DNA from: Utricularia gibba
Taxonomy: Eukaryota > Streptophyta > Magnoliopsida > Lamiales > Lentibulariaceae
Assembly: GCA_002189035.1 (NCBI GenBank)
Contig: CM007989.1
Location: 4,991,001-5,055,000 of the forward strand
DNA length: 64,000 bases
Direction of reading: 5' to 3'
Below the pieces are notes generated by a model that ran no database searches, had not been told where the DNA came from, and worked only from the letters and a program-made list of their open reading frames with translations. A program made the position numbers and the translations under genes. Shown here piece by piece: positions 13,455 through 43,071 of the stretch. The first letter of the stretch is position 1; every line of letters starts with the position of its first letter.

Positions 13455-14514
13455 TGATAAATGAAAAATTTGTGCAAGTCCCTATTTGCAAATTTTTCCT
13501 ATCAAATAAAATTTATAAACCTAATTTACATCAAATCATATGAAAAATATGAGCATAGTGGACTAGGGTCGAACACAAGGAGCTAGGTGCTTGCTATGTG
13601 AAGGTCAATGCAAGGAATTAGTGTCACGTTGGTAAAATTGGTCTTAGCTAGGACTAAGGCAGAACTATGATAGAATGTAGTAAAGAAAAGTAACAAGTTT
13701 TGGGACTTGGTAGTTTTTGGAATGAAGTGGGTGATGCCTTGGGACTCCTAGGGAATGTATGTCTATCACTAAACAAGTTCACATAAATCATAAATCATAC
13801 ATCTAACTCACAAGATCTAGGTCTTCCTGGACTCTTGTTTTTCCCCCTAATTTTTAGTCTATCTCTAATTAGGATTGTTAAGTTTTGTTTCACTACTTCC
13901 CCCTCGTGGATCTATTCTGATTTCTTAAGGAAGTGGCGTGACTTATGGTTTATTAAGCCTAAGGATTGATTAGCATATTTCTCCTCTTTTCACCCAAGGC
14001 ACCCCCTAAGTGCTTAGTCACTCATAACAAGGGAAAGGAAAACGTTTTCATAGCACATGCTAAGCAACATTCTGGTTTCAAAGCTAAACAACAACGAGCA
14101 ATACATAGCAGAAGTAGGAAAGACAATTTGTTCACGCAGTAAATCCAAATCTAGTCTTAGATAGGAACAGTAAGCATCAAGAACGAAAATAAATCTTCAA
14201 AGAGAAGCTGTGTTCTTTTGGTTCGTCGTTCCCTTCCTTCTTCTACCCTAGAAAAATCTCCAGAAACATGTCGTGAGTCTCCAATGGGGAGATCTGACTT
14301 CTCTCTCTATCTTTCCCCCTTTTTCCAAAATCTCCCTTTTTCCTCCTTGGATTTTGCGTGTACTACTTTTCAGAATTTTGGACTCATCTTCTGCCACTTC
14401 ACTGTGTATATTCGGCTCATTGGGATTTATGTTGCGACCTGCACTGCATTGCTCGAATAAAACTATTAAAAGGTTGGGACTAAATCATAGATTTAGTCCA
14501 ATCAAAGGGGACAT
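13455..14514 (-). repeat. R2 repeat copy B (inverted relative to A)
   Basis: On the minus strand this copy ends ...TTTATCA at 13455, tail to tail with copy A. It shares with the copy at 19556-20450 the landmarks CCTAGATCTTGTGAGTTA, GGAGTCCCAAGGCAT-like and the TTCGACCCTA block. Its 5' part is cut by copia I at about 14515; near there it shares TTAGTCC(A/C) sequence with the D copy at 50495-51676. Open frames at 14218-14460 fall inside it and are not genes. Confidence 0.65.
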
Positions 14515-14685
14515 CATAAGAAGGTATGTGGAATGTTTAATCCAATCAAGACTAATCAGAACAAGAAGACTACTTCTAGGGATGAAGAATCGCATGCATC
14601 TTTTACTTACTTTGATGGTGAACCATAAATATTTTTTGATGATCCATGTGTGCTCTAATGACAGTAGTCTCAAATCCTAAAGATG

Positions 14686-15887
14686 GGTACTTGGATTCTG
14701 GCACCTCCTATCATGTATGTTGTGATGCAAGATCATTTCTATAGCTTGAGAAGATTGGGAAGGAAGTAAGTACATGTAATGGTGAAAATATTGACATTGT
14801 TGCCAAAGGAAGCATTTTACTCATGCTAAAGGAAGGAATTGTGCAAGTTTATAATATTTATTATGCATCAAATCTCAAACAAAACGTATTGAGTTTTGGT
14901 CAATTAAGCAGACAAGGCTTTGACATTGAATTGATCAAGGATGCTAGTGGTGTAACCACTAAAATTAGAGTTGCTGATCCAAAAATGAATATTGAGTTCC
15001 ATGTTGTGTTGACCACCTACAACCTCTACCAAATCTCGTTTAGTGATCATAAAAGTTGTATTTTCTCACTTCAAGATCAAAGTAGCCTTTGGCACAAACG
15101 TTTTGGGCACTATAGCTTCAACAATCTGAAAATGAGGCAAAAGAATAACAAAGTACTGGAATTGAAAAACATTAAGTTTGCTGATGTCATATGTGAAGTG
15201 TGCCATTAAGGTAAACACTGTAGAAAGCCATTTTATTCCATTGATTCAGTAGTAAAGAAATTAAAACTTGTGCATACAGATATTTGTGAACCATTTAAGG
15301 AATGTTCATTGAGGGGGAGTAGATATTTTGTTACATTCATTGACGATTATTCACATTATTGTTGGGTTTACTTTCTTAAAAGCAAGTCAAAAGCTCCTCA
15401 TATCTTTCAAAAATTCAAAGTGATGATTGAAAATCAGAGTGGATGCTCTTTTTAAAGATGATTAGATCAAAAAATGGATGTGAATTCTATAATAATAGCA
15501 TGAGAATGTTTTGTAAGAATGAGGGAATCATTCATCAATTCACAGTTCCATATTCCCCACAATAGAATGATATGTGAAAGGAGGAACATAAGAATTCTTG
15601 ATATGTCAAGGTGTCTATTGTTTGATAAAGATTTTCCTGTAAATTTCTAGGCTGAAGTGATATCTATGCTTGTATATCTATTGAACTTGCTTCCATCCAA
15701 GGTGATTGGTGGAAAGACCTCTCATAAGAAATTACATGGTTATATTAAAAAAGTTTATTATCTTAGTATCTTTGGTACTTTGTGTGTTACTCATGTACTA
15801 AACCAAAAACAAAGAAAACTTGATAAGAAGTCTATATCCAGTGTGTTTGTTGGTTATAGCAATACTACCAAAGGATATAAAGTTTAG
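14686..15887 (+). pseudogene. Copia I protease, pre-integrase and integrase region
   Basis: The retroviral-type protease motif is readable near 14686 (YLDSGTSYH). The pre-integrase motif follows (LWHKRFGHYSFNN about 15089-15127, ICEVCH to 15209). The integrase core (HTDICEPFKE; FIDDYSHYCWVYF; ending about 15640) is next, then an integrase C-terminal block with KSISSVFVGYSN to 15887. Stop codons interrupt it at 15210, 15455 and elsewhere. The copy keeps the segment that is deleted from copia II. Confidence 0.75.
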
Positions 15888-16560
15888 ATATCTGATCAGA
15901 AGAAGTTTATCTTCAGTCATGATGTTTCTTTTGATGAAGGTGTAAAGTATACTCTAATTGAGGATTTTCTTTCTTTGAATGATGCAAAAGCTCATGAAAA
16001 TCATAGAGAGCATGATGCTCACATGAAAGCTGACCTTTGCACACATATGCCTCAAAACAGCTCTTCCAGCATTCAACGAAACAAGAAATTGAAGATGGTA
16101 TTGAACATATACAGGTGAATGAGAATTCAAAATCAACTTCAGAACTCTTACATGAAGATTCAAATCAGGCCAATGATCAATATTCAGATGGAAATCTCCC
16201 TCTTCCAAAAGAGGAGAAAGCTACAAATGCATATGACTCATCAAATGAGAATTTAGAATCAACCTCTCAACCGTTGAATGAAGCATCATATGAGGCCAAT
16301 GATCAATATTCAGACGGGAGTCTCTCTCTCCCAGAAGAGGAGAAAGCTACAAATGTGGATGACTCATCAATAATGAGTCTGATGGAGAGGAACCTAATAC
16401 TGATGATGAAGAGTATTACCGACTTGATCGTGATTGGCAAGGAGGAAAAAGCAAAAGCATCAGATAGTCAAGAGATAATGAAGATAATTATGTTACTAAC
16501 ATAAGACAAAACAAAAGAAACAAGGCTTCTATAATAAGTTTCTTAGAGTTGAATGATGAT
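15888..16560 (+). pseudogene. Copia I acidic integrase-RT linker with internal repeat
   Basis: Between the integrase and reverse transcriptase remains lies an acidic, Ser/Asn/Glu-rich linker. It contains a unit repeated twice: (D/E)ANDQYSDG(N/S)LxLP followed by EEKATN(A/V)xDSS. The same arrangement is found in copia II. No enzymatic domain was recognised here. Confidence 0.6.
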
Positions 16561-16689
16561 GTTCAAGATGTTGTAGCTGATGTTTTGGTTAGACCATTCA
16601 CAGGAGATCCAGCATCATCTGAAGTAGTTGTACAAATTCTATCCTTGAAAATGAAACCTGGGGTTAGTTGACAAATTCAAGGATAGGGG

Positions 16690-17990
16690 TTTCATACCTA
16701 TTGGCCTCTAGTGGGTGTTCAAAACCAAGATGAATGGTGATGGCTTGGTAAATAAATATAAGGCTAGATTAGTAGCCAAGGGATATAGTTATATCAAAGG
16801 AATAAATTTTCATGAGATTTTTGCACCAAAAGCAAGATTTGACATAATTAACATACTTCTTGCCATTTCATTTGCTCATGGATGAAAAGTGCATCACATG
16901 GATGTAAGACTGCATTTTTGAATGACGTGTTGTAGGAGGTTGTTTTTGTTGAAAAATCAAAGGGCTTTTAAGTGTCAGGTCATGAAAATAAAATACTGAA
17001 ACTAAAAAATCTCTGTAAGGGTTGAAACAAGCCCTTGTAGCATGGAATGAACACATGGATGATTATCTTCAGGGTATTGGTTTCATGAAAATATACAGTG
17101 ATTACTCACTATATGTTAAAGGAAAGAGAGATGATCGTTTATTCGTTAATCTATATGTGGATGACCTTATGATTACCTCATGTGATTAAAGGAAGATTGT
17201 AGAATTCAAAGCGCTACTCAAAAATGGATTTAAGATGATTGATTTTGGAGTGATGTCCTACTATTTACGCATGGAAATTCATCAACTTGTAGGTGTTGGA
17301 ACATTCATATCTCAGAAGAAGTACTATAATGAACTTTTTGAGAAGTTTGGGTTCAAAGATGTACATCCTTCAAAAACTCCTTTGGATTACAAACAGGTGA
17401 TTGGAACAACTAGGGAACAAATGTGGATGCTAACTCACATAGAAGTATGATTCAAAGCCTTATCTATCTCTAGCATACAAGATCCGACCTGAGTTTTTGT
17501 GTATAAAACTCACATGGCAGTTGTGAAAAGAGCTTTCAGGTGTATAAAATCTACTAATAATTTTGGATTGTTCTATCCCTGTGAAGGTAAAAAACCAATC
17601 TTCAAATTTTGAGCCTACTCGAACAATGATTATGGTATGGTTGAAGACAACAATAGTACATGTACTGCACTCTTCTTCTTAAATAAAAGCCTTGTAGTCT
17701 GGTTTTTGAAGAAACAAAAGATGGTGGCATAATCAACAGCTGAAGCTGAATACATCTCAGCAGCACATGGTTCAAGCTATTGCATTTGGTTGAGATAGAT
17801 GTTAAAAGAACTTGGATTCATACAAAAGGAAGCTACAAATATGCTTTTAGATAATAGAGCTGCAATCTCTATGGCCAACGATCCAACCAACTTCAACAAA
17901 GCCAAACATATAAGAGAATCAGGTATCATGTCATAAGAAATTACATCAAAGAGAAGAAGATCAAAGTGTAGTCACAGAATCCGCTTGCTG
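16690..17990 (+). pseudogene. Copia I reverse transcriptase and RNase H remnant
   Basis: Fragments in several frames match copia reverse transcriptase, including the LYVDDLMITS catalytic block (about 17152-17181), DFGVMSYYLRMEIHQL (17241 on) and, further down, RNase H-like text ending in the region before the polypurine tract. Stops at many positions make it inactive. Confidence 0.7.
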
Positions 17991-18105
17991 ATGGGCTTAC
18001 CAAAAATTTGAACAAGGTTCAGTTTGATCTAGCAAGGCAGAACATGAATCTAATGACTATAGAAGACTTTTTCAAGTGGGAGATCTTAGTTTTAGGGGAG
18101 GGGAG

Positions 18106-18411
18106 TATTGGAGATCAGCATCAATCCAAATAAGCTTGAAGGTGATTGGAAGCATTATTCTTGTGTCATGAAGTCATCTTTCACTTCAAAACGTTGGGCT
18201 TGGTTATTAGGTCTTTTATTTTTGTTTTTTCTTGATTGTGACCCATTGTTGTGTAACCTAGACATGGGGTTTATATATACCCCAATAGGAATTCGTGAGG
18301 TTAGGGTTTTTGGCCACTCTTATTTTTAAAGAGTAGGTTTTCATCAAATATGAGTTCATAAGCATTAGCCCACTATTACTTCCTCAAGACTCTATCTTTG
18401 TTGAATCAACA
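18106..18411 (+). repeat. Copia I 3' LTR
   Basis: Begins TATTGGAGATCAGC (first dinucleotide changed from TG) and ends ...GAATCAACA. It aligns with the copia II LTR, including the GGGTTTATATATACCCCA-like promoter stretch (TATA near 18269-18276). Confidence 0.7.
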
Positions 18412-18416
18412 TTCAA

Positions 18417-32905: not shown

Positions 32906-34225
32906 TGTTAAGTACCATTTTCTAACTTATTATAAGGTATTATTAGGTGTTAATCTAGTTTTAAGTCACCCAAATTAGGAGTCTTATTATTAAGTATTTG
33001 ATTTATTAGAAAAATCCTATTTTCTTATTTTATATATATTTTCTGTCTTTTTTTGTGCACTTTAACCGAGATATGTTAGGAGGCAGTCGTGAAATGTTGT
33101 AGGAATATTGTAGGAGGTCAGACTTTGACTTTTCGTGCCTTGTGTGCGACTTAGAACAATTGTGAGCGGAAGACTGATATTGGTTAAGACCCTGACTTAC
33201 GGCATGTCAGAGTTTGCAGAAATGATTGGGCGCTAACTTGCACACAAAGGAAAGTTGGTGGCGTATGCAAGACAGAAGGAATGATGGGAAGGGGATTAGA
33301 AAGAGTTAATGCACGTGGGGAGTGATATAAAAGTCACTTGGAACACTTAGCTTTTGGAACTTTTTTGACATTTTCTTTTTGTACTTAGAACTTTTGAGTT
33401 CTTCCTCTCTCCAAGGATGAAGAACACTTAGCTTTCTTTTCGTTTCTGTTTTCATAGCCCTTTCGTGCTAAAATCCTTTAGTTTGTGGGAGAAGATGAAG
33501 TTTCTTTTCAAGTCTTGAGCACTACACTCGGTCCATCACTGAATTCAATTTGGATTTTGCATACTTCTATGCGTCTTGTTGCAGTCTTTCTATAACGACT
33601 CCTAGTCAAGTTGCATGAGTAGCAGGTCACTCCTCGCGGATTTTGGTGAAGATCAAGGTGAAGAACACCAATTTCAACCCTATCGGTTCGAGGGAAGTAG
33701 CAGATTGTTTGTGGTCTAGGTACCGCAATAGTGGATAGGTTGTGACCTCAGACCTGCTACTGGCTATTGGCAATAGTTGGGCACACGCGCGCAATTCAGT
33801 TTTGAAGGCAATCGAAGGCAATCCTCTTGTCTTCCTAATCGTCCAAGGGGAATTACATGAGGCTATTCCCGTGCCTCTTTGTCAATGAGAGTGTAAGGGA
33901 GAGTAGGCTATTCCTTGCTCTTATAATCAGCAATTGGGAAGAAATCAATGAAAACCAAGACAAGGATAGACAAAGGAAGGAGACGGAATCTCAAAAACCT
34001 CTTTTGCAACTTTTAGCAATTCCCATAGTCAAGACCCATCACTTAGGTTGTAACTTTTATTTCTACGTCTCAAAAACCTCTTTTGCAAAACTGTGACATT
34101 TTGTAAAAGTTTCTTACGAAATAATTTTCACGAAAAAGAACTCCCTGAGATCGATACTTGTACTATGCTCTTTTGTGTTTTAAGTTTTAAATATTTAAAA
34201 TTTGTTGAGGAAACGACACACATCA
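32906..34225 (-). repeat. R1 repeat copy G1, complete, inserted in copia IV
   Basis: 1320 bp, starting TG (TGATGTGTGTCG, minus strand from 34225) and ending CA (CACTTAACA-like, at 32906). Flanked by ATAGT (32901-32905) and ATATT (34226-34230), a 5-bp target duplication with one change. Removing the repeat and one duplication copy rejoins the copia IV reverse transcriptase in frame. TG...CA ends and a 5-bp duplication fit a solo LTR or a short non-autonomous LTR element; no coding capacity. Open frames inside (33627-33821, 33857-34096) are chance. Confidence 0.75.
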
Positions 34226-34230
34226 ATATT

Positions 34231-35238: not shown

Positions 35239-35243
35239 TCAAA
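35239..35243. repeat. Target-site duplication of copia II, left
   Basis: TCAAA, identical to 40224-40228 on the other side of copia II. Confidence 0.85.
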
Positions 35244-35563
35244 TGTTGTTGCAAGAAAAATAGAGTCTTGGGAAGTAACGAAAAGGTAGTGCTTATGAGA
35301 TCACCTTGGATGAAAAACGACTCATGAACAATAAGAATGACCGAAAACCTAGTTAACACGCATTCCTAGTAGGGTTTATATATACCCAATACCTAGGTTA
35401 CCCAACAGTGGGCCACAATCATTGAAAACACACAAAAAGCCCAACAACTCGAACCCAACAATTCCATGCTCGAACCCAACTCGTTTTTATCTGAAACATG
35501 ACATTATGACACAAGATTAATGCCAATCACCTTCAACCTTTGGATTGAGGCTGATCTCCAACA
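35244..35563 (-). repeat. Copia II 3' LTR
   Basis: Starts TGTTGGAGATCAG and ends CTTGCAACAACA on the minus strand. Nearly identical to 39899-40223. Confidence 0.88.
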
Positions 35564-35583
35564 CCCCTCCCCCCCCCCCCCCC
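35564..35583 (-). promoter_or_regulatory. Copia II polypurine tract
   Basis: On the minus strand a run of 15 G, one A and four G directly precedes the 3' LTR, the position of the plus-strand primer. The run is unusually G-pure. Confidence 0.75.
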
Positions 35584-35714
35584 AAACCGAGATCTCCCAA
35601 CTTGAGAAAGTCTTCCATAGTCATGAAATTCATGTTCTTCCTTGCTAGCTCAAACTGAACTTTGTTCAAACCTTTGGTGAGCCCATTAGAAGGCTGATTC
35701 CCACTCTCAACATA

Positions 35715-37055
35715 CTACACTTTAATCTTCTTCTCCTTGATGTAATTCCTTATGACATGATACCTGATTCTTATGTGTTTGGCTTTACTGAAGTTCGTCG
35801 GATCCTTGGCAATGGAGATTGCAGCTCGAGTATCCATAAGCTGATGTGTAGCTTCCTTTTGTATGAATCCAAGTTTGTTTAACATCTGCCTCAACCAAAC
35901 ACCATAGTTCGAAGCATGTGCTGCTGAGATGTATTCTGCTTCAGCTGTTGATTGTGCTGCCACCTTTTGTTTCTTCGAAAACCAGACTATAGGGGTCTTA
36001 TTTAAGAAGAAGAGTGCACCAGATGTACTCTTGCTATCTTCAGCCATACCATAATCACTATCTGAATAGGCTCTAAGTTTCAAGACTGATTTTTCGCCTT
36101 CATAGGGATAGAACAATCTGAAATCAGTAGTAGATTTTATGTACTTGAAAGCTCTTTTCACAGTTGCCATGTGAGTTGTTGTTGGTTTATTAAGGAAGCG
36201 AGATAAGACATTTACACAAAAACACAAGTCAGGCCTTGTATGCTGGAGATAAATGAGGCTTCCAATCATACTTCTATAAGTAGTGGCATCCACATTCTTT
36301 CCCTGATTGTTCTCTCCAATCACCTGTTTGTAATCCAAAGGCGTTTTTGAAGGATTGACATCTTTGAACCCAAACCTTTCAAGAAGTTCATTACAGTACT
36401 TTTTCTGAGATATGAATGTTCCAACACCTTCAAGTTGATGAATTTCCATGCCTAGATAATAGGACATCATTCCAAGGTCAGTCATCTTGAATTCATTTTT
36501 GAGTAGAGCTTTGAATTCCTCAATCTTCCTTTCATTACATGAGGTAATCATAAGATCATCCACATATAAGCTAATAAATAACCGATCATCTTCTTTTCCT
36601 TTAACATATAGTGAGTAATCACTATATGTTTTTCTGAAACCAATACCCTGGAGAAAGTTATCCATGCGTTCATTCCATGCTCTAGGAGCTTGCTTCAACC
36701 CATAGAGAGATTTCTTTAGCTTCAATACCTTGTCTTCATGACCTGACACTTCGAAGCCCTTTGGTTGTTTAACAAAAACAACCTCCTCCAGCACACCATT
36801 CAAGAACGCAATCTTGACATCCATGTGATACACTTTCCATCCATGAGCACCTGAAATGGCAATAAGTACTTTAATCGTGTCAAATATTGCTACTGGTGCA
36901 AAAATCTCATGAAAATTTATTCCTTTGATCTGACTATATCCCTTGGCTACTAATCTAGCCTTATATTTGTTGATAGAACCATCTGCATTAATCTTGGTTT
37001 TAAATAACCATTTGAGGCCAATATGTTTGAAACCCCCTATCCTTGGGTTTATCAA
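35715..37055 (-). pseudogene. Copia II reverse transcriptase and RNase H (long open frame)
   Basis: A 446-codon open frame. Reverse transcriptase: [20 protein letters not shown] near the front, VYHMDVKIAFLNG, LKKSLYGLKQAPRAWNERMD, and the intact catalytic LYVDDLMITS. RNase H follows (ARL-type SDSDYG...AEAEYISAA). The frame stops before the polypurine tract. It is the best preserved part of the element, but in an intact element it would be the C-terminal part of one gag-pol polyprotein, so on its own it is only a remnant. Confidence 0.8.
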
Positions 37056-37755
37056 CTAACTCCCATGTTTCATTTTCAAGTATAGAATTCATTTCTTCCT
37101 TCATAGCCTCTCTCCATTTCAAGTGAAACAGAGGGAGGTGAATCAATAGAGAAATTAGAAAAGAAGTTTGAAGTGCTATTGATTTAGCTACGCCAACCGC
37201 ATGCAAAGGAAAAAAAAAATGATTTTGTACAGCCACTTCAAATGATGTTGGATCTCCTGTCAATAATCCAGCCAAAATATCAGCTACAGCATCTTGGACA
37301 TCATCATTCAACTTGGAGAAACTTATTGTAGGAGCCTTGTTTCTTTTGCTTCTTCTAATGTCAGTAACATGACTATCTTCATTATCTATTGAATCTCTGA
37401 TGTTTTTGCGTTTCCTCCTTTGCCAATCACGATCAGATGGGTAATCAGTATCAGGTTCCTCTCCATCAGATTCATCTGTTGATGAGTCTTCTGCATTCGT
37501 GCGTTGCTCCTCTTTTGGGATTTCGAAATTCCCATCTGAATGTAGATCATTAGCTTGATGAGATTGTCCATATAGGGGTTCAGAGTTTGATTCTGAATTC
37601 TCATTGGACGAGTCATCTTGATTTATGACCTTCTCCTCCTCTGAAGCTGGAAAATTCTCATCTGAATGCTGATCATTTACTTGATTTGAATCTTCATGAA
37701 TGAGTTCTGAAGTTTCTTGGTTTCTTGAATTCCTGGAAGAGAAGTTTTGGGGCAT
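37056..37755 (-). pseudogene. Copia II acidic linker with repeated unit and basic patches
   Basis: Between integrase and RT. A unit of about 35 residues appears twice: (Q)VNDQHSDENFPASEEEK... and QANDLHSDGNFEIPKEEQ..., each followed by a DDSS or EDSS end. Basic clusters RRKRKN and RRSKRNKAP further on look like nuclear-localisation signals, by composition only. Copia I has the same repeated unit. Confidence 0.65.
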
Positions 37756-37844
37756 GTGTGTCCAGAGGTCTCCTTACCTATGGGTGGTATGCCTTCCATG
37801 ACTTTTATGAGCTTCTGCATCATTCAGATAAATGCAATCATCAA

Positions 37845-38415
37845 TTAAAGTATATCTTGCACCTTCATCAAAAGTGACATCATGGCTGAAGATAAATTTC
37901 TTCTATTGAGGTAGATAAACTTTATATCCCTTGGTAGTGTTGCTATAACCAACAAATACACTAGATACAGATTTCTTGTCAAGTTTTCCTCGTTTCTGGT
38001 TTGGTACATGAGTAAACACAGACTACCAAAGATTTTGAATGGATCAACCTTTTTAATATAACCATGCCATTTTTCATGCGCGGTTTTTCCACTAATCGCC
38101 CTTGAGGGAAGCAAGTTCAATAGATATACAGATGTAGATACCGCTTCAGCCCAGAAATTCACAAAAAGATCTTTCTCAAACAATAGGCATCTTGACATAT
38201 CAAGGATTGTTCTGTTTCTCCTTTCACATATACCATTCTGTTGTGGAGAATATGGTACGGTGAATTGATGCATGATTCCCTCATTTTCACAGAACATTCT
38301 CATGCTATTATTGTAGAATTCACCTCCATTGTCTGATCTAATCATTTTCAAAGAACATCCACTCTAATTCTCAATCATCACTTTGAATTTTCGAAAGATA
38401 TGAGGAACTTCTGAC
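37845..38415 (-). pseudogene. Copia II integrase, C-terminal two thirds
   Basis: Encodes IRSDNGGEFYNNSM and VPYSPQQNGICERRNRTILD, the D...E part of the integrase core, and VYLLNLLPSRAISGKTAHEK. The zinc-binding front and the first catalytic Asp are missing because of the deletion at about 38415. Confidence 0.75.
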
Positions 38416-38417
38416 TT

Positions 38418-39206
38418 TTACTGTTTCAGGTTTGGTGAATAATAAGCATCATCAACTTGAACAATTCCTTCTTTTAGCAAGAGTAAAATGCTTCCTTTGC
38501 CCACAATTCCAATATTTTCACCAGTGCACGTGCTTACCTCCTTCCCAATCTTTTCAAGCTTGAGAAATGACCTTGTATCACAACATACGTGATAGGAGGC
38601 ACCTGAGTCCAAGTACCAGCATTTAGCATCTGAGGCTACTGTCATTAGAGCACACTCATACTCAACAGGATCTTCAAAAGATATTTCTGGCTCATCTTCA
38701 AAGTAGGTAAATGATGCATGTGATTTCTCTTCCCTGGAAGTAGCCTTCTTGTTATGCTCAACTTTTATTGGATTTGACATTCCACATACCTTGTCAAGAT
38801 GGCCTCTTTGATTGCATTTCGTGCATAAAGCATCAGGCTTCCACCAACAAAACTCACTCCTATGATTCTGTTTGTTGCAATGCTTGCAAGCATTTGTGCT
38901 TAAAGTCCAACAATCTTCACTCTTATGGTTGGATTTGTCACAATGCCTGCACTTCTGATTGCCCATCGTTGATGTTGGGATTGACGTTGGTGATTGATTG
39001 ATGGCTGTTGACTTGACATCCTTGACATTGTTAATTGCACATGAGGTTATATTCATAATCTGCATTTTGGTGAGGAGAGCAGCTTCACCATAAGTTTTAT
39101 CAACTTCATAACCATCTCTTAGCTCCAATCTCTTTTCTGTAGATTGCAACTCAATCATGAACTCTCTAAATGTTGGCTCTGGTATAACAGGATATTCAGG
39201 ATACAA
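38418..39206 (-). pseudogene. Copia II gag C-terminus with three zinc knuckles, and protease
   Basis: Three CX2CX4HX4C zinc knuckles lie in tandem (genomic 38784-38951; residues 86-99, 107-120, 128-141 of this frame): CRHCDKSNHKSEDC, CKHCNKQNHRSEFC, CTKCNQRGHLDKVC. Most copia gag proteins have one. The protease active site follows (WYLDSGASYHVCCD). The frame ends right at the deletion junction. Confidence 0.8.
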
Positions 39207-39402
39207 CTGATGGAGCTTTCCTTCAATAATGTCAAGGATTTTTCTTTTTGTCTCAAGTGCACATAACTTTGGCTAGAATCTTGCAGGTAGGCTTATGATT
39301 GTCTTGCTAATCACCTTTTGATCCTCAAGTTTTTCCCCCAATCCTCGAATCTCTTCACAAGCTTCGCAGTACGTTCATAATAGACTTGTATGGTTTCATT
39401 GT

Positions 39403-39837
39403 CTAACATTTTGTTCCTCTCAAAGTCCTCCAACTTGTTTTTGCATAATATCTCTCTGAGTTTGGCATTGCCTTCTTCTTATAATGGGATTTGAGAGTAT
39501 TCCATATTTCTTTTGCTGATTGACACTCTGCAATATCATCAAATAGATGTTCAGAGATGGCTTGATACAAGGCATCCATTGCTTCATCTTTTCTCTGTTG
39601 AAGATACTCAGCTTCCTCTTGCTGTTCTGATGTGGATTTGCTTGTTATTGTAATAGGCGGAATCTCCCTTTCGACAACATCCCAAATCTTTCTGACCCGA
39701 AGGTAGCTGCGCATCTTTTTGACCCAGCTTGCATACTCTAAACCATCAAATATTAGAGGTCCTCTACCAGATGCCATCATAGCCACCGCTTGACAAGCTT
39801 TGGGTTGATACTTGGTAATCCACCAATTAAAAAACAC
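39403..39837 (-). pseudogene. Copia II gag N-terminal region
   Basis: MASGRGPLIFDGLEYASWVK near the start and YQAISEHLFDDIAEC and AKEIWNTLKSHY further on match the DUF4219/UBN2 gag of copia elements. A frame change separates it from the zinc-knuckle part. Confidence 0.7.
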
Positions 39838-39886
39838 TGAACGGTAAATAAAATACTAAAACGAACACAGGTTTGAGAACCTTACT

Positions 39887-39898
39887 GCTCTGATACCA
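39887..39898 (-). promoter_or_regulatory. Copia II primer-binding site (tRNA-iMet)
   Basis: TGGTATCAGAGC on the minus strand, complementary to the 3' end of initiator methionine tRNA, immediately next to the 5' LTR. Confidence 0.9.
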
Positions 39899-40223
39899 TG
39901 TTGTTGCAAGAAAAATAGAGTCTTGGGAAGTAACGAAAAGGTAGTACTTATGAGATCACTTTGGATGAAAAACGACTCATGAACAATAAGAATGACCAAA
40001 AACCTAGTTAACACGCATTCCTAGTAGGGTTTATATATACCCAATACCTAGGTTACCCAACAGTGGGCCACAATCATTGAAAAAACACACAAAAAGCCCA
40101 ACAACTTGAACCCAACAATTCCATGCTCGAACCCAACTCGTTTTTATCTGAAACATGACATTATGACACAAGATTAGTGTTTCCAATCACCTTCAATCTT
40201 TGGATTGAGGCTGATCTCCAACA
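39899..40223 (-). repeat. Copia II 5' LTR
   Basis: TGTTGGAGATCAG...CTTGCAACAACA on the minus strand, with a TATA-type stretch (GGTATATATAAACCC, near 40028-40042) that marks the promoter. Confidence 0.9.
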
Positions 40224-40660
40224 TCAAATTGAGTTTTCACAAATATTTAAAAGTCTTGATAACATTTTAATACTTCATCCTTGTGTTTCGACATATACAC
40301 TCATGTTATGCAAAAATAATAGTCAATAAAGGTAACAAATTATTTGAATCCATTTATTTAAACAATTGGACATATATACTCCAAACATATGAATGTACAA
40401 GATAAAAAAGTTTCATACTTCATTTCTTAATAGAGAGATAGCTATTTTTTGTACACTTACTAATCTTGTATGTCTCGCAAAATAACCTACTCAGATTAAT
40501 ATGTTTCATCATGTCCAATCCTACAATATTGCAGCATAAGATTTTCAAAAGTAGTACCAGCTAGGTAATAGTTTATGAGTCCATCATCCACACACCATTA
40601 TTCCTCATCCTGAGTTCCAAATAACACTACCATATAAATAACACTCATTTTCATTAAAAG
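40224..40660 (-). pseudogene. Copia IV integrase core remnant, upstream part
   Basis: Resumes the copia IV integrase on the far side of copia II. Blocks such as FVTFID and WVYMSKHKDEV are readable near 40320-40240, with stops. The first five bases are the right TCAAA duplication of copia II. Confidence 0.5.
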
Positions 40661-41024
40661 CTTCAATGCGATTCAGTTCATCTACCATATAACTAACTAT
40701 AACAAATTGATTAGAAACAAAGGAACACAAAGCGTATAACTTCAAAGATAAGAGTCAAATACAATGTAGACATTATTCAAGGAAAGCAATATGTGGAAGG
40801 TAGGAGGGTAAATAAATTCCTCAAGGGAGTAAATTCCAAGTTTGAGAATCGAAGAGCATTGATATGTCACCTCAAGGAATGATACTCATTGGATGAAGTT
40901 GTAGCTACAATGGAATAAGAAGAAATTAAGCAAAAATTCATGATGGACAAAGTGGCTAGGACTATGCTTCCCAAAACCCTTTAGTTTTTAAAATCGACTC
41001 AATCATATTTGCAATAGATAGAGG
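40661..41024. other. Retroelement-derived flank of fragment III
   Basis: A plus-strand stretch (about 40800-40990) gives VNKFLKGVNSKFENRRALIC and SLDEVVATME in one frame with stops. This looks like decayed gag-type text but the family is not certain. Confidence 0.3.
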
Positions 41025-41564
41025 GTGAAACAGAGGCTAGCAATCCTGTTGAGCTTTGGCCAATTGAGCAGGCAAGGTTTTGACATTGAGCTGATGAAGG
41101 ATGCTGGTGGTATAACCACTAAAGTTAAGGTTGCTGATCCAAAAACGAAGATTGAATTCTATGCTGTGTTGGCCACCTACAACCTCTACCAAATCATGGT
41201 CAGCGATCATAAAAGTTGTATTTTCTCACTTCAGGATCAAAGCAGCCTTTGGCACAAACGTTTTGGGCACTATGGTTTCAACAATCTGAAAATATTGCAA
41301 AAGAATAAGGAAGTACTGGAATTGAAAGACATCAAGTTTGCTAATGCCATATGTGAAGTGTGTCATCAAGGTAAACAGTGTACAAAGCCCTTTTATTCCA
41401 GTGATTCAGTAGCAAAGGAGAAATTAGAGCTCGTGCATACAGATGTTTGTGGACCATTTAAGGAATGTTCATTAGGGGGGAGTAGATATTTTGTTACATT
41501 CATTGATGATTATTCACGTTATTGTTGGGTTTACTTTCTTGATTCACAAGTCAAGACCAATTAA
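41025..41564 (+). pseudogene. Fragment III: pre-integrase and integrase front of the copia I/II family
   Basis: Encodes LSFGQLSRQGFDIEL, SLWHKRFGHYGFNNLK, ICEVCHQGKQCTKPFY (the HHCC zinc front of integrase), HTDVCGPFKE and FIDDYSRYCWVYF in one open frame. It starts and stops at almost the same points at which copia II lacks this part (junction near 38415), and it lies in the opposite orientation. It is closer to copia II/I than to copia IV. Confidence 0.8.
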
Positions 41565-41701
41565 GATAATTTTTTTATTTGAAACTTGAACTCCAAAAAT
41601 AGTAACTCAATTTGACCTAGGTTTACCTTACTTTGGATAGCAATAGACTTAGTCGATCTTTGTACCATATCTTCTAATTGCATTTTGAATAACATAGTCA
41701 T

Positions 41702-43071
41702 TGATAGCACACAAAATTTTCTATTTTATAATAATAAAATTATGACTTTTTATTATATTTTAATTCTTTAGTTTATACTTTCAAATATTTTCCCAAAACT
41801 TAGGGAACATATGAATTTTATGTGCAAACGGGCTAAATCGCATCCCATGTGATTAACCCTCTTTTGGGTCTAGCAGCAAGTCACAAAAATCAGGGTAGAC
41901 AATATGGATTTCATGTAAGCATCAAGTCGCAGAGGAGAAAGTAACATGAAGGAAGGAATAATGAGTGCACTATCGTGGTGGCAGTCTGCAAGTCAAAGGC
42001 AAGAACAGCGGTGCTGTCAAAGATAGTACTTGTCTTCGGAAATGAAAGAAGAGAAGATAATTTTGGAGAAGATTTAATCGTAAAGAGCTTCGAGAGCTTC
42101 AGCAACGGCACACAGGAAGCTCCAACACCACGAACACTAAACCAGAAAGAAGACGAAGTTGATTTGTTCAGAAGGATGTAAAAAACAAGAAGAACAAGCT
42201 CAAGAACCCAATGAGTGCTACTATTCCACGTTGTGAAGAGTAGTTGACATAAAATAGAAAATTTTATTTGCTTAGTTTACAGAATATTGTACTTTCGTTA
42301 GCTGTTTGTTTGACAATATTGAGGATATTTTTTTCAGTTTATGACTATGAAATCTTGCTTTATTTTCCATACATGAGTAGCTAATCCTTAGGGATGTCTT
42401 AAGGTGTAAATAGGGTTCATAATATAATTGGTCATTGTTTCTTAGCATTTGTTTCTATCAATCCTCGAGTAAACCTAAGAAGGGAAACAAGTAGCTTCAT
42501 AACTTTAGATACTTGATTTAGAAGTAGATCAAAGAATCAAGGTGAAAGCAATAGGTATTAGTTCAAAGTAGAACCAGTAGAACCGGGTAAACCTAATTCT
42601 ATATATTTTGCATGCGGGTAGACTTAATTATGACGTTGGTGATAATATTGAGGACTCCATTAACTAAAACATGATGAATGAATTCGATAGACTTAGGTTG
42701 TTTGGAGTTGTGAGTATAGAAACTTTCTAGATTAAATTAAGGACCTTAATATTACATCATCTGCATACCATTGAAGTATTTTAGTGTTACTTTGTATTTG
42801 AACAAGTATTTGTTACCTTTCACATTGAGATTTGTTTTTAAACATTGAATTTTACTACCACTATTAGTTTGAGCTTAGATTAAGACCAACGTTTATTTTG
42901 AATTCTGCATCTACTAAAACATTTCGCAAACACCAACTCATTGTGATCGACTCTAAATTTCACTTTACATTTTGTATTTAGTTTGTATTTTGTGAGGATT
43001 AGAAATTATAAATTTATTTGATACAAAGATTTCATTTTTCGCAATGATTTTAAGAAATTTTTCTTTTATCA
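41702..43071 (+). repeat. R2 repeat copy C, complete, inserted in copia IV
   Basis: 1370 bp, starting TGATAGCACACA and ending ...TTTTATCA. Flanks GTCAT (41697-41701) and ATCAT (43072-43076) are a 5-bp target duplication with one change. TG...CA ends and duplication length suggest a solo LTR or short non-autonomous LTR element. Landmarks: ACGGGCTAAAT, CATGAGTAGCTAATCC, AGTAAACCTAAG, GATCGACTCTAAATT near the 3' end. No coding capacity: the frame at 41975-42181 is chance. Confidence 0.75.

Follow-up and report, generated by a model that had tools for sequence, protein, structure and literature searches.

Within a 64,000-nucleotide stretch of the Utricularia gibba genome (C1:4991001-5055000, CM007989.1; hereafter the window, inside a 100 Mb assembly), a Ty1/copia retrotransposon, copia II, and the older element beside it carry parts of each other. 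A 0.5 kb internal segment missing from copia II lies inverted in the neighbour, while about half of the stretch that it displaced there lies, also inverted, inside copia II, joined to 42 bp of filler from a distant locus. The last two features go beyond the original prediction, which concerned the 0.5 kb segment. The best explanation, to which we assign a probability of about 0.7, is a single episode of clustered double-strand breaks in the two elements, repaired together.

A segment missing from copia II lies inverted beside it

Copia II extends from LTR to LTR over 35244-40223 (minus strand), between copies of the target site duplication TCAAA at 35239-35243 and 40224-40228. The LTRs, the 5-bp duplication and, in a profile search, gag_pre-integrs followed by rve identify copia II and its displaced segment as a Ty1/copia LTR retrotransposon. 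The two LTRs differ at 6 of 321 sites, which corresponds to about 0.7-1.4 million years with the substitution rates usually applied to plants, an age that is an upper bound only for the date of the rearrangement.

A loss of about 0.5 kb had been predicted near 38415, and comparison with intact copies confirmed it: 504 bp are replaced by TAA (sense) at 38418-38420 (minus strand). At the 12 loci read at the junctions, intact copies present, with small variants, the order A-side ...AAACAG / AA / X (496 bp) / AAAAGC / AAGTCAG... B-side; copia II reads ...TGAAACAG / TAA / AAGTCAG.... A search with positions 38150-38700 matched the two halves separately in other copies, with the segment of the predicted inverted fragment (fragment III) between them; on C213, for example, the A-side runs up to 3482585, X occupies 3482588-3483083 and the B-side starts at 3483090. 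In the 100 Mb, the word spanning the junction is found exactly only in copia II itself; allowing one mismatch adds no site, and two mismatches add three. A deletion common to other copies of copia II had been named as an argument against a local origin; none was found by the exact junction search of the 100 Mb, and the flanking pairs in the copies listed enclose the segment, leaving copia II as the only copy found without it.

Fragment III was expected to hold the missing segment on the opposite strand about 0.8 kb outside copia II, at 41025-41564. The segment is indeed there, starting 821 bp beyond the LTR, but its copia part is limited to 41045-41540 (plus strand), referred to here as X, while 20 bases at the start of the predicted interval and 24 at its end are native flank. 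X encodes gag_pre-integrs along with the beginning of the integrase core (rve), and since only this beginning is present, the rve score is under the Pfam cut-off. It corresponds to 496 of the 504 deleted bp. Given the matching segment and the junction layouts, what copia II lacks (504 bp) and what fragment III contains (496 bp) are one segment to within 2 and 6 bp at the ends. A random sub-segment of the element would have both ends within 6 bp of the deletion ends with a probability of about 7e-6, proximity uncounted.

A genome search with fragment III returned at least 40 places, with 94-98% identity across almost the same 496 bases. Among the 34 copies possessing X and both copia II flanks (A and B), private changes amount to 6/496 in X and 8/548 in the flanks (Fisher p 0.79). 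A greater closeness of fragment III to another family copy, the second argument named against a local origin, was not observed: none of these 34 copies is distinctly closer to X, and the nearest, L010, differs at 8 of 479 positions and also has minority variants of the copia II flanks. The divergence of X appears to be that expected for copia II's own segment, although, in a family that resolves few branches, it argues only weakly for this origin; the weight for common origin rests on the coinciding ends. Together, the matching ends, the unique junction and the equal divergence support what the original prediction had set against a separate copy, namely a piece that was excised and put back inverted, or one that was captured as filler while a break was repaired.

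The landing site and the patch inside copia II

X is framed by two shoulders of a decayed older copia-type element, F5 (40972-41044, minus strand) and T (41541-41677, minus strand), homologous to C375:903817-903884 up to the breakpoint and to C375:904001-904134 from the breakpoint on, respectively. The match ends at window position 41043 on the F5 side and resumes at 41542 on the T side. The search for an empty site suggested with the original prediction was successful: where the window has X, relatives of the flank on C375 and C142 have about 115 bp. These relatives are paralogous copies of the flank, not alleles. The C142 relative (L048) aligns with C375 uninterrupted over 902750-904067, F5, the intervening stretch and T are continuous in both, and the window's F5, insert and T align along both. 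The sequence to the left of fragment III occurs in few copies.

Minus-strand open frames of the C142 relative gave hits to Retrotrans_gag (E 0.0014) and Pol_BBD (E 1.8e-4), both under the Pfam cut-offs, and look like decayed copia gag-pol. On this basis, X sits within the gag portion of the older element beside copia II, where it replaces about 115 bp; for the same reason, we abandoned the reading of C375 and C142 as whole-genome-duplicate partners of the flank. With an identity of 64-81%, relatives of the older element leave some doubt about the letters that stood at the landing site before the event. Further out, a 204-bp piece of this element, z (40755-40958, plus strand), lies in the opposite orientation to C375:903451-903654, and next to it about 578 bp are lost on one side and 162 bp on the other. 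The C142 relative has the same order as C375 around z, and the two missing stretches were not found elsewhere in the window. The inversion of z may come from the same episode or from older decay.

Within the window, the only significant match to the stretch displaced by X lies at 37119-37178, in the reverse orientation and with 85% identity over 61 positions, and a genome search with the native C375 form of the stretch revealed no match besides this one. The match belongs to a 100-bp insert in copia II, 37121-37220, present in none of the approximately 40 family copies listed, whose two sides lie 0-3 bp apart. Searched alone, the insert splits in two, bases 4-58 matching C375 (86%) and bases 59-100 matching C142 (98%). 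The first part, y (37121-37178, plus strand, 58 bp), is 86% identical to C375:903908-903963 (minus), the gag stretch where X now sits. With y, 58 of the approximately 115 bp are recovered, whereas the flanks of about 33 and 24 bp, one on each side, are not. The second part (37179-37220, plus strand) is identical at 41 of 42 positions, 39 of them in a row, to C142:1223305-1223346, a locus with no other similarity to the window. Its 27-base core occurs at only two sites in the genome (27/27 match), with none more at up to three mismatches. This piece looks like a copy templated by a distant donor, which was itself retained. Its template thus remains elsewhere; that of y at the landing site is gone, and no second copy of X or y was found at their sources.

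Short inverted words mark the breakpoints. The original prediction had pointed to GAAACAG next to both, and the motif is present near each; as a sign of transferred copia sequence it was rejected, since at fragment III the motif (41027-41033) is part of the native flank, which in the C375 relative reads TGAAATAG. It is part of the word TGAAACAG, found in native flank at 41026-41033 (plus strand), in y at 37124-37131 (plus) and at the copia II junction at 38421-38428 (minus); the first two extend to TGAAACAG(AGG) at 41026-41036 and 37124-37134. Inverted words are common to F5 and y (GTGAAACAGAGG, 12 bp), to F5 and the copia II junction (TGAAACAG, 8 bp) and to the B-side and T (AAGTCA, 6 bp). 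Random pairs of 20-base window segments share words of at least 11, 8 and 6 bases at frequencies of 0.0006, 0.007 and 0.08, to be read with the post hoc choice of our sites in mind. The corresponding letters are TGAAATAG and TGAAACAT in C375 and TCAAACAG in the copia family, so the words are more alike within the window than in relatives. This is a hint of template switching over plain end joining. Template switching is known to homogenise imperfect inverted repeats (PMC8604942), and could possibly have done so here.

A probable single cluster of breaks and its alternatives

According to the preferred reading, the breaks would have fallen within about 4 kb, after the insertion of copia II. Two of them would have released X, the gag_pre-integrase/integrase segment, from copia II, a third would have cut copia II 1.2 kb away at 37120/37221, and one or two further breaks would have opened the older element between F5 and T. 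In the repair, the copia II gap would have been closed almost blunt with TAA, X would have been ligated in inverted orientation between F5 and T in place of about 115 bp, and the third break would have been patched with y, the inverted landing-site stretch, and 42 bp copied from the C142 donor. Either y moved, or it was copied and then lost at its origin. Judging from the form of the junctions, the nearly loss-free X joins would point to classical NHEJ and the composite patch to polymerase-theta-type templated filler. The fit of X to the deletion, its inversion, the relatives' empty site and the sources of the two patch pieces are observed; the pathways and the simultaneity of the breaks are inferred from one haplotype.

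The joins observed within these 4-5 kb use each other's material, X and y are both inverted, and the F5-X-T joins contain no clear filler. The region has the clustered breaks and several joins of a chromothripsis-like event with no copy gain of the shuffled pieces, the 42-bp C142 copy being a small gain. Sorting the region by inversions alone takes four steps for X and y and five with z, which makes a jointly repaired break cluster the economical reading. A simple fold-back double crossover exchanging X and y was rejected as it stands, because y lies 1.2 kb from the X deletion.

The same reversal distance of four, or five with z, permits a series of successive inversions, or X may have moved once and the patch at 37121-37220 may reflect an earlier or later repair that copied y from the neighbour, since in plants filler is commonly copied from nearby sequence (PMC7156093, PMC10923293). 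We consider such a stepwise history unlikely: it leaves to be explained why X landed exactly on the stretch copied into copia II, and it is less economical to have the same few bases broken repeatedly. Replication-based template switching (MMBIR/FoSTeS), in which the chromosome was copied with opposite-strand jumps at y and X, agrees with the inversion of both pieces, with the words GTGAAACAGAGG (F5, y), TGAAACAG (copia II, F5) and AAGTCA (B-side, T) at the breakpoints, and with a patch of which one piece is certainly a copy. Such copying, however, normally keeps its source, whereas X and y are single here, and at the X junctions there is hardly any loss or microhomology, making this mechanism improbable. 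Even less probable is an assembly error: the structure is known from one assembled haplotype, but an error would need to have produced small inverted exchanges together with a 3-nt junction and a templated patch, in a window that contains no N. Finally, fragment III as an unrelated truncated copy, with an independent copia II deletion, draws on a family of at least 40 close copies, some of them broken, but was rejected as very unlikely, because the junction is unique in the 100 Mb and X and copia II have similar private divergence, with ends coinciding (chance about 7e-6) only 0.8 kb apart and landing-site sequence present inside copia II.

Known break-repair products and neighbouring repeats

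A joint repair of clustered breaks would be an event of a known kind, chromothripsis-like end joining with plant filler DNA, here unusually well resolved. Plant filler DNA at breaks has been attributed to polymerase theta (PMC10923293, PMC7156093). Like such filler, the 100-bp patch joins two templates, one at another local break and one distant, and was inserted at a break with 1-2 bp lost; unlike filler, which is copied, often from templates right beside the break, the 496-bp X is absent from its source and is not a copy. Plant chromoanagenesis junctions combine microhomology, perfect and inserted joins on a far larger scale (PMC9911071, PMC8423247). As in the events described in Populus (PMC8423247) and Arabidopsis asy1 (PMC9911071), breaks are clustered, pieces lie in both orientations with some loss, and clean joins are mixed with small-insertion joins; those events, however, are of megabase scale in treated or mutant lines, whereas pieces of 58-496 bp within 4-5 kb of a genome assembly are concerned here. 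The near-identical inverted words at the breakpoints, more alike than in relatives, recall yeast template switching between imperfect inverted repeats (PMC8604942), which, unlike the relocation of 0.5 kb seen here, homogenises short arms and inverts short spacers.

The components of the rearrangement are known, and what is notable is its resolution at base level and the near-reciprocal exchange. High-copy retrotransposons supply a near-exact 'before' sequence, against which an old break-repair event can be followed base by base. In this case the event is a conservative relocation, whereas filler DNA in plants is usually interpreted as copied. This suggests screening for internal-only retrotransposon fragments with ends that coincide with a deletion in an adjacent element. 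It is conceivable, though we hold it to be rather doubtful, that sub-5-kb shattering with conservative fragment exchange, in which short inverted words fold the broken sites back onto each other, regularly scrambles nested retrotransposons, and that many lone internal fragments next to elements are excised pieces and not truncated copies of independent origin.

In the stretches compared, copia II otherwise matches the family copies, except that it has lost 12 bp at one point, gained 5 bp at another and carries a 71-bp stretch lacking from some copies only. The latter (37555-37625), absent in L037, L043, L003 and L008 and present in L002 and L038, is a family length polymorphism and was discarded as part of the event. 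A related, more diverged copia element occupies 14499-18412, mostly at 78-81% identity to copia II, and is probably the copia I of the original prediction. To the left of copia II, 33600-34228 is part of a very abundant repeat (85-87% over about 626 bp for the best 40 of 643 candidates). On the other side, a dispersed repeat at 41702-42500 starts about 160 bp beyond fragment III and is 67-87% identical to approximately 40 places among the matches listed.
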